A DNA stretch of 39,037 bases, taken from Clostridia bacterium. Lineage in GTDB: Bacteria > Bacillota > Clostridia > Oscillospirales > Acutalibacteraceae. Positions 381-35,799 of this stretch are shown one piece after another. The stretch lies in contig JAFSGB010000007.1 in the NCBI GenBank assembly GCA_017434895.1, positions 1-39,037 on the forward strand. The letters run 5' to 3'. The translations under genes and the position numbers were made by a program. Below the pieces are notes generated by a model, which searched no databases, was not told the DNA's origin, and saw only the letters and a list, made by a program, of their open reading frames with translations. Position 1 is the first letter of the stretch. Each line of letters begins with the position of its first letter.

Positions 381-555
381 AGTTATATTCGCCTTTGGCG
401 AGTTATATTGCTACGCAGTGATATTTTGACTTCGTCAAAGTGATATTCGCTTCGCGAGTTTTAGCGGCGAATATAATATCGCTTCTGCCAACGGCAGAAA
501 TATCACTATGCCGAAAGGCATAATATCACTCTGTTCGTCAGAACGGAATATCACT
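381..555. repeat. Quasi-palindromic array of small hairpins with AGTGATATT/AATATCACT joints
   Basis: Nine-base joints alternate with short self-complementary segments. On the left the joints are AGTTATATT (381-389, 401-409) and AGTGATATT (417-425, 439-447). On the right they are the reverse complement, AATATCACT (499-507, 522-530, 547-555). The segments between them are each their own hairpin with a different sequence: CGCC/GGCG, GC-TAC-GC, TTGAC/GTCAA, CGC/GCG, TCTGCC/GGCAGA, ATGCC/GGCAT and GTTC/GAAC. The centre pairs ATATTCGC with GCGAATAT. The left half can therefore pair with the right half while hairpins stick out at each step. No coding capacity is apparent. A single unit recurs at 35469. 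Confidence 0.85.
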
Positions 556-35051: not shown

Positions 35052-35438
35052 ATGCTAAATCGTGATTTTGCTATAAATAAAAGAATAAGAATGAGGAGAA
35101 GTTAACTGGGTTTTAACCAATCCCGCGTAGCTGAAAGTTTGGGGATAAAAACCAGCACCTATTCTCAAATGGAGAGAAAGGGCTATATCACATGCGAAAC
35201 CTTGAAATTTTTGTCTGGGATTTTGAATATTAGTACAGAGTATCTTCTGTACGGAATGAAAACCGAAAAAGATGTTGAGGTAATACCACCGGACACAAAA
35301 AGATATGAATTTTTAGAGAATATATCTGATGCAGAGCTTAAAATCCTTAGGCGAACTTTATTTTATCTCAAAAGAGAAAAAAGAAATATGGTATATCGCT
35401 ATGCTATTGAAATGATAAATAACAAAAAGACTACTTAA
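35052..35438 (+). pseudogene. XRE-family HTH regulator interrupted by a stop codon
   Basis: From ATG 35052 (GAGGGG site just ahead) the frame reads MLNRDFAINKRIRMRRS, then TAA at 35103-35105, then LGFNQSRVAESLGIKTSTYSQMERKG. Relatives have Glu or another residue at the stop position inside the first helix of the HTH domain, so one base change (GAA to TAA) explains it. The rest of the frame is intact to 35438, with the dimer-region motif LNISTEYLLYGM. No good start follows the stop, and a TTG at 35139 lacks a ribosome binding site and would lose half the HTH. A recent pseudogene is the simplest reading. Confidence 0.82.
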
Positions 35439-35468
35439 AGAGATGCACTCTGTAAGGAAGTGCGCCTC

Positions 35469-35497
35469 AGTTATATTCGCCAGAGGCGAGTTATATT
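35469..35497. repeat. Solo unit of the hairpin-array repeat
   Basis: AGTTATATT-CGCC-AGA-GGCG-AGTTATATT is identical to 381-409 except that all three loop bases differ (TTT there). Stem and joints are conserved exactly. The preceding CGCCTC can also pair with GAGGCG, giving an alternative fold. Confidence 0.8.
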
Positions 35498-35538
35498 ATC
35501 TTTGAGATGGGTATAAAATCAAAGTATGTAACCCACTA

Positions 35539-35570
35539 TGACACTTTCAAGTTGAAAGTGTCAATTTTTA
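35539..35570 (+). terminator. Terminator after the XRE pseudogene
   Basis: TGACACTTTCAA and TTGAAAGTGTCA are perfect complements around a single G, so the real loop takes a few pairs. ATTTTTAT follows. Confidence 0.85.
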
Positions 35571-35583
35571 TATAAAAAGAAAA

Positions 35584-35617
35584 TTGGGAGAACACTTCTT
35601 TACGAAGTGTCTCCCAA
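35584..35617. repeat. Hairpin related to the one at 28980
   Basis: TTGGGAG pairs with CTCCCAA, and ACACTTC pairs with GAAGTGT, with one bulged A. Its minus-strand reading GGGAGACACTTCGTAAAGA matches GGAGACGCTTCGTAAAGA at 28980 with one difference. It may end a transcript converging from the right or be a repeat. Confidence 0.7.
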
Positions 35618-35799
35618 AAGTAGCCTTTTGTTTTGCTTGTTGCTCTTTTTTGAGTATCTTCTCTGTCACCTTATCCCCCTTAAACGACAATTATCTTGTC
35701 CTTGACCTGTTTAGGGGCGGATTTTTTGTGTCTGAAAATAGAGAACATCCCTATATATTGTATGATGAAAAGATTTTTGAAATTTCTGCAAAAAAATGC
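35618..35799. other. Stretch without a recognisable gene before the S10 promoter
   Basis: A + strand frame starting TTG in the hairpin at 35584 runs to 35946, but it lacks a ribosome binding site, crosses the S10 promoter and leader, and has an odd composition. I do not call it. Nothing else is seen apart from T-rich runs. Confidence 0.6.

Follow-up and report, generated by a model that had tools for sequence, protein, structure and literature searches.

A two-armed, seven-hairpin array in a Clostridia genome as the probable structured module of IVS-like mobile elements inserting at RNA hairpins

The window analysed in this study, the whole of a 39,037-nucleotide stretch of DNA from a Clostridia bacterium, carries at positions 381-555 an array of hairpins that is probably a structured module of small mobile elements which are kin to the intervening sequences (IVSs) of 23S rRNA genes and insert at RNA hairpins. 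Copies of the module occupy hairpins at which transcripts end, namely tRNA-like CCA ends, some of them behind tRNA or tmRNA genes, or the loops of Rho-independent terminators. According to our proposal, a complete element would comprise, in this order, a hairpin that we call H0, the ladder of seven hairpins and a short gene encoding a PF05635 four-helix-bundle protein, and copies that lack the gene, the window's included, would be non-autonomous derivatives. Once the strand, which may be RNA or one strand of DNA, has folded, the protein would bind its repeated, unpaired joints, and the protein-bound strand would be the particle that is inserted at hairpins, the gene-less copies using protein supplied by other copies. 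Insertion at the tops or bases of hairpins would leave the stem of the host transcript or terminator intact. We infer both the transposition and the protein binding.

Anatomy of the array

Direct reading of positions 381-555 gives eight 9-nt joints around seven hairpins, none of them alike, in the order J1-h1-J2-h2-J3-h3-J4-h4-centre-J5-h5-J6-h6-J7-h7-J8, all coordinates being those of the plus strand. The joints that start at 381, 401, 417 and 439 are of the type AGTKATATT, and J5-J8, which start at 475, 499, 522 and 547, are in the reverse complement, of the type AATATCRCT. The initial annotation had described seven different hairpins joined by joints of two orientations, those of the two arms being reverse-complementary, and on both points the direct reading agrees with it. 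In the left arm, J1 (AGTTATATT, 381-389), which together with the 5′ arm of h1 pairs to the centre as helix P1, is followed by h1 (CGCC-TTT-GGCG, 390-400), J2 (AGTTATATT, 401-409), h2 (GCTACGC, 410-416), J3 (AGTGATATT, 417-425), h3 (TTGACTTCGTCAA, 426-438), J4 (AGTGATATT, 439-447) and h4 (CGCTTCGCG, 448-456), the last of which was left out of the structure counted below. The TNC triloop of h2 recurs in 56 of the 58 copies with a detected stem among the 61 copies examined. The centre (GGCGAATATAA, 466-476) is the partner of 383-393 in P1 and contains a position that covaries as A-T, T-A or C-G across copies. The right arm begins with J5 (AATATCGCT, 475-483), the first joint of the reverse-complement type, whose first two bases lie within P1, and continues with h5 (TCTGCCAACGGCAGA, 484-498), J6 (AATATCACT, 499-507), h6 (ATGCCGAAAGGCAT, 508-521), J7 (AATATCACT, 522-530), h7 (CTGTTCGTCAGAACGG, 531-546) and J8 (AATATCACT, 547-555). 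In three copies (L031, L067 and L099) h6 is extended by about 22-27 nt and includes an internal inverted segment, ATATCTCGCC..GGCGAGGTAT, which gives the impression of a hairpin unit inserted within another one.

The structural unit exceeds 381-555. The perfect 16-bp hairpin H0 (345-380), of the AT type, adjoins the array on its 5′ side and is identical to the H0 that stands behind a tRNA-Arg gene in another genome (locus L070). Outside lie two 73-nt direct repeats, at 275-347 and 556-628, which are 84% alike. The first ends in ...CCCTTTCCAAAG, at the place taken in other copies by the 3′ end (CCA) of a tRNA, and it is a candidate tRNA remnant. The second is a candidate tail of the element, and similar sequence follows J8 in a few copies; the tail motif TTCGAACACATA was rejected as a general mark, since it was found in 3 of 115 copies versus 5 in shuffled tails. 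T-loop-like GGTTCGAA motifs are present in both repeats.

A second, internally deleted copy lies at 35440-35585 of the plus strand and comprises an H0-like hairpin, J1-h1-J2 and a tail that resembles the tail of a full copy on another contig (L021 on C14). The R1 covariance model matches it at 35469-35585 with 45.3 bits. Read by eye, the two flanks of the copy (35421-35436 and 35618-35632) come close to being complementary and the 3′ side is rich in T, so that this copy may sit in a terminator-like hairpin or loop. Two further observations concern the window's genome. An array of like design with other joints, ATGATATAC / GTATATCAT, lies near a copy of the 73-nt repeat (L023, G000:C29, about 640-800), and an apparent ladder of the ACATCAT joint type is found at about 570-730 of contig G000:C28 (L024), which also holds a Y1-transposase fragment at G000:C28:6-164.

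Hairpins stand between the joints and the repeat inverts at the centre, which sets the array apart from CRISPR. At gathering scores, an Rfam scan of the window returned a tRNA and the S10 leader only, and the array does not lie within a 23S rRNA gene.

A family of arrays

The joint-hairpin-joint pattern occurs 11 times in the window's genome, where the reversed control pattern occurs 0 times. Among 200 genomes of the bacterial family the pattern was present in 50 and the reversed control in 6, once in each, and a few of the pattern matches across the 200 genomes are visibly not hairpins. Homologous arrays elsewhere, which the initial annotation had anticipated, were recovered by a covariance model of the whole array, which finds copies in 67 of the 200 genomes and at least 13 copies in each of six; copy numbers are lower bounds, because no more than 13 candidates in any genome were scored in the R1 covariance-model search. 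Among the matches listed, the named records that contain part of the pattern are Clostridia, Oscillospiraceae and similar metagenome-assembled genomes (MAGs), mostly from the ruminant gut.

With joints allowed one mismatch at most, 143 distinct arrays of at least four joints were called, and the 122 with at least five joints and a turn from plus to minus were kept. The exact 4+4 plan, ++++----, is the commonest, accounting for 61 of these 122, which are related arrays found in Clostridia MAGs; copies from related genomes are not independent. The number of hairpins thus does vary, as had been predicted, but less than the prediction implied.

Selection on single hairpins and helix P1

As RNA, the array of the window folds with -60.5 kcal/mol (z -5.4), and 0 of 200 shuffles folded equally well; the fold of the minus strand is also strong (z -5.06). 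The claim that pairing is kept while the sequence varies, and hence that structure is selected, is upheld by comparison of copies. In an alignment (A1) of 39 copies, hand-chosen from 58 candidates, a structure made up of P1 together with h2, h3 and h5-h7 has 97.3% of its cells paired versus 80.6% after shuffling, and 221 double-change cells versus 65.3, with compensatory change at 25 of its 39 pairs. In P1, the segment made up of J1 and the 5′ arm of h1 (383-393) pairs with the centre (466-476), and the most variable pair of this helix is A-U in 19 of the 39 copies, U-A in 15, C-G in 4 and G-U in 1. Since the 5′ arm of h1 is common to both, h1 and P1 are mutually exclusive. Among 61 canonical copies, the stems of h3, h5, h6 and h7 average 3.9-5.4 bp versus 1.4-2.7 bp when their 3′ halves are swapped among copies, and they are kept despite 13-19 different 5′ starts, while h1 and h2 are nearly invariant and carry little information on pairing. 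The module is thus selected for its single hairpins and for helix P1, which connects the 5′ end of the module with the centre.

The initial annotation had further supposed that the joints of both arms form one long stem from which a hairpin leaves on either side at every rung, and here the comparison went the other way. The joints are indeed reverse-complementary, and the unconstrained fold of the window's sequence pairs some of them at -60.5 kcal/mol, versus -39.7 kcal/mol for the counted pairs of the P1 structure. Since the window's sequence of the array, taken alone, folds more stably with joint pairing, the argument for P1 depends on comparing the copies. Across the 39 copies, however, cross-arm joint pairing fills 88.6% of cells versus 87.8% in shuffled copies, compensatory changes are few (14 double-change cells versus 8.3), and mismatches at variable positions occur in up to 32 of the 39. 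What positive signal there is is weak, comes from few joint pairs and keeps to no single register, and the long stem is incompatible with the covarying helix P1. Comparison of copies gives no support for pairing of joints J2-J8, and we regard a stem across the arms as highly improbable.

Insertion at terminator loops and CCA ends

In 20 copies from three genomes, inspected by eye, the sequence 5′ of H0 often recurs as its reverse complement after the tail, and these inverted flanks are bordered on the outside by an A-run at one end and a T-run at the opposite end. Because inverted flanks with an outer A-run and T-run are the two halves of a Rho-independent terminator, such an element lies in the terminator's loop. 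The flanks were compared systematically in 86 of the 142 copies listed, those dropped having no H0, short flanks or exact repeats; the 25 nt before H0 were matched against the region 20-700 nt downstream of J8. Exact inverted flanks of at least 11 nt were found in 27 of the 86 copies versus 1.07 expected from mismatched pairs, and in 24 of the 27 no more than 6 nt separate the end of the inverted match from H0. Of the terminator-loop copies, 29 have open reading frames on both sides, which are convergent in 20, ++ in 5, -+ in 3 and -- in 1; the tandem cases are too few to judge.

The two kinds of address go with two types of H0. Inverted flanks of at least 11 nt accompany 27 of the 66 testable copies with a GC-type H0 (39 of the 66 are without such a flank) and 0 of the 20 with an AT-type H0. 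A CCA at the 5′ foot of H0, on the other hand, is present in 18 of 21 AT-type copies, the window's included, versus 12 of 76 GC-type copies, and a recognised tRNA ends at most 60 nt from J1 in 7 of 21 versus 1 of 76. By the rule used, 34 of 131 copies have no H0. The copy in the window is of the CCA type and sits behind the CCA-ending repeat, at a spot where the Rfam scan recognised no tRNA.

The PF05635 protein and its joints

In 9 of the 122 ladders of the window's joint type, a gene for a PF05635 (23S_rRNA_IVP) protein starts 17-48 nt after J8. Starting from the genes, an automatic rule finds an inverted joint array at most 340 nt upstream of 52 of 110 PF05635 genes from the bacterial family; downstream it finds one for 1 of the 110, and in shuffled upstream sequence for 0-1. 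The 110 genes consist of 30 loci and 80 hand-picked among the matches listed, and the detector gave 53 or, by another split rule, 52 of them. Because an identical 6-mer in the two arms is a requirement of the detector, agreement between the joints of the two arms is not independent evidence, and the informative figure is the fraction of genes that pass. By hand count, 56 of the 110 genes are ladder-linked: five of the 52 (L201, L205, L222, L262 and L280) were relabelled as plain inverted repeats and nine missed ladders were added, and the 56 include two loci (L193 and L204) with the left arm alone before the gene. At the level of genomes, PF05635 is present in 56 of the 67 in which the ladder model finds copies versus 39 of the 133 others (OR 12.3, p 2.6e-13).

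The joints of PF05635-linked ladders differ and include GTKATAT, TGAAAT, TGAAG, TGATG, ACATCAT, AGCTRAA and TGATATAC. In a tree of 113 PF05635 proteins (the 110 and three further ones), 59 of 59 ladder-labelled rows fall in one clade of 61 rows with an SH-aLRT of 99, and ten context labels require 22 changes versus 72.5 when shuffled, the joint types clustering in subclades; the tree is a quick one, built on few alignment columns, and 53 of its forks are open. The joint sequence thus differs by subfamily, in step with the clade of the protein beside it, an agreement that is also to be expected from joint inheritance alone. In the group that neighbours the ladder clade, short tandem units form inverted repeats upstream of the gene, and for most of the other proteins inverted repeats flank the gene on either side. 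By eye, the PF05635 genes of four loci (L201, L234, L235 and L239) lie behind an H0-like hairpin whose 3′ strand is apparently repeated before the gene; these loci have short tandem units in the inverted repeat and are a possible forerunner of the ladder.

A same-strand tRNA ends 100-400 nt upstream of 30 of the 56 ladder-linked PF05635 genes, and a same-strand upstream tRNA accompanies 9 of 13 PF05635 genes with upstream inverted repeats and 0 of 32 with flanking repeats. Antisense tRNAs number 0 in these three groups and 1 of 9 in the unclassified rest, and a tmRNA is found in three of the 110 stretches.

Near the window's own copy no PF05635 gene or remnant was detected, the best match having an E-value of 0.02 and overlapping another predicted ORF, and the PF05635 profile has no match in the window's genome, which is 83% complete. 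By sequence, the solved structure nearest to the PF05635 protein is 2rld (E 1.7e-29). A review connects PF05635 with Avd, a protein of diversity-generating retroelements, and cites by title a relative that is composed of five four-helix bundles. A search for the protein in 50,697 phage records found two matches, both on unverified faecal contigs that are possibly bacterial. Each has an array directly upstream, with model scores of 121.8 and 31.4 bits, and in the first of these a tRNA end and an H0 of the AT type, both recognised by eye, precede the array.

A location upstream of the PF05635 gene and downstream of tRNAs is also what would be expected of a cis-regulatory element, either a terminator modulator or a leader, that serves the PF05635 gene or the tRNA or protein gene upstream. 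Such a role seems to us quite unlikely, since only the nine ladders mentioned above, out of the 122 of the window's joint type, have the gene. In addition, several gene-bearing copies have promoter-like sequence between J8 and the start codon, and for that reason the ladder would lie outside the PF05635 mRNA; as a general mark, a promoter after J8 is weak, occurring in 20 of 115 copies versus 12.0 when shuffled.

Gut-1 RNA as one arm of the element

The Rfam model Gut-1 (RF01706) matches positions 380-451 of the plus strand with 47.2 bits (E 1.5e-8), under its gathering score of 50, and it also weakly matches the other arm on the minus strand. Another copy of the array in the window's genome scores 52 bits, over the threshold. 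Apart from Gut-1, near-matches of Rfam models at the array have E-values of 0.12 or worse. Across the order, 295 genomes were scanned with RF01706; 115 have it at E-values up to 1e-6, 103 of these over threshold, and 0 of 14 control genomes have it. The four loci that match Gut-1 best belong to other families of the order, and each has a tRNA end, an H0 and the left arm. The tRNA was recognised by ARAGORN in three of them and by eye in the fourth, and both loci with long enough sequence also have an inverted right arm with four ATTTCAC joints. Because its best loci show H0, the left arm and the inverted right arm, we take Gut-1 to be the left arm of a two-armed element. The left arm of the window resembles Gut-1 in its three small hairpins parted by a repeated 7-nt joint, the joint being GUGAAAU in Gut-1 and GTKATAT in the window's array. 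The Rfam model covers one arm (77 positions) and contains neither the right arm nor P1 nor H0. The suggestion that the array is an undescribed repeat family was therefore half right: one arm is already catalogued as Gut-1, but the two-armed, protein-linked element is new in the literature searched.

Gut-1 was first read as a probable ncRNA, and the array might likewise be a stand-alone structured RNA whose dispersed copies are paralogous RNA genes, with nothing mobile about them. Such a reading would account for the strong structural covariation and for the fact that copies without a gene outnumber those linked to one. It accords poorly with copies that lie in terminator loops with differing flanks, with the high copy number in the six genomes already noted, and with the presence of a ladder beside about half of the PF05635 genes examined. 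We consider a stand-alone ncRNA improbable, and mobile elements with a PF05635 partner remain our preferred explanation.

Mobility and candidate movers

Two copies in one genome (L290 and L291) are 90% identical over 367 nt (-32 to +163) and have different flanks and terminators. No exact empty sites were found in congeneric genomes, nor was any transposition or excision. The nearest to an empty site is an orthologous gene in a congeneric genome, which has an intact, element-free terminator of other sequence.

Group IIC introns prefer transcription-terminator hairpins, a preference that they have in common with the ladder elements. No group II intron matched at the array, RVT_1 (reverse transcriptase) is not associated with ladder genomes (OR 1.2, p 0.63), and it was not found in the copy-rich genome G180; a reverse transcriptase was accordingly rejected as the mover for want of a genome-level association. 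REP/BIME sequences, which are linked to RAYT transposases, are dispersed intergenic palindromic units that form arrays of opposite orientation. The ladder likewise consists of dispersed palindromic units with opposite orientation within an array; unlike REP/BIME, its hairpins differ within one array while the joints are constant. An array of the REP/BIME kind would be moved by a linked Y1 transposase; for the ladder, the association with Y1 is weak at the genome level (OR 1.86, p 0.051). Neither Y1 nor RVT_1 was found in two genomes with at least 13 copies each (G004 and G168), and a Y1 transposase seems an unlikely mover too.

A related alternative is that the element acts at the level of DNA, its palindromic arms forming hairpins in single-stranded DNA or cruciforms for an unrelated single-strand transposase. 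Both strands fold, and the loops, among which GNRA- and GNYA-like loops are both present and TNC and GNA triloops are common, are often closed by C-G, as TNC or TNNC in the left arm and GNA or GNNA in the right arm. GCGNAGC is an unusually stable DNA mini-hairpin, and the complement of h2 is GCGNAGC. The loop types are suggestive of DNA rather than RNA and are not decisive. The weak association with Y1, and its not being found in the two genomes just named, count against this alternative. A DNA-level element would also need an asymmetric target, because in the ladder and upstream-repeat groups together 39 tRNAs are placed on the same strand and 0 antisense. We see an element moved by an unrelated single-strand transposase as a possibility to be kept in mind, though a rather unlikely one.

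Relation to rRNA intervening sequences

Mobile elements that insert at RNA hairpins, as we interpret the ladders, have a known counterpart in the IVSs of 23S rRNA, which share with relatives of the window's copy the same protein family, PF05635 or S23. The IVSs have been viewed as selfish elements (PMC4990558). According to a study of CPR bacteria (PMC11270868), most insertions in rRNA genes, of which some carry PF05635 genes, are located at a stem-loop, either at its top or at its base. The ladder elements and the CPR rRNA insertions have the same pair of addresses. The differences are that IVSs target rRNA whereas ladder elements target terminators and the 3′ ends of tRNA and tmRNA; that an IVS has a simple terminal stem in place of the seven-hairpin module; and that gene-less copies are numerous in the ladder family, unlike among IVSs.

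We suggest tentatively that these elements may represent a new class of hairpin-seeking elements, in which a four-helix-bundle protein acts on single-stranded joints spaced by hairpins and the element spreads into the loops or bases of RNA hairpins that end transcripts, with neither a transposase nor a reverse transcriptase in the element itself. The 23S rRNA IVSs would then be the best-known corner of this class, and Gut-1 half of the body of one of its members. A search of the open-access literature, beyond which most subscription journals and preprints lie, found no description of a link between Gut-1, the IVS protein and insertion at terminators and tRNA ends.

The finding joins an orphan Rfam RNA, Gut-1, to the rRNA-IVS protein and to a preference for insertion in terminator loops and at tRNA ends. 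In a 2024 paper the rRNA intervening-sequence protein is still described as functionally uncharacterized. The old question of how IVSs spread becomes testable, as copies outside rRNA are numerous and many have clear boundaries, and the pairs of protein and joint are ready-made for tests of binding.
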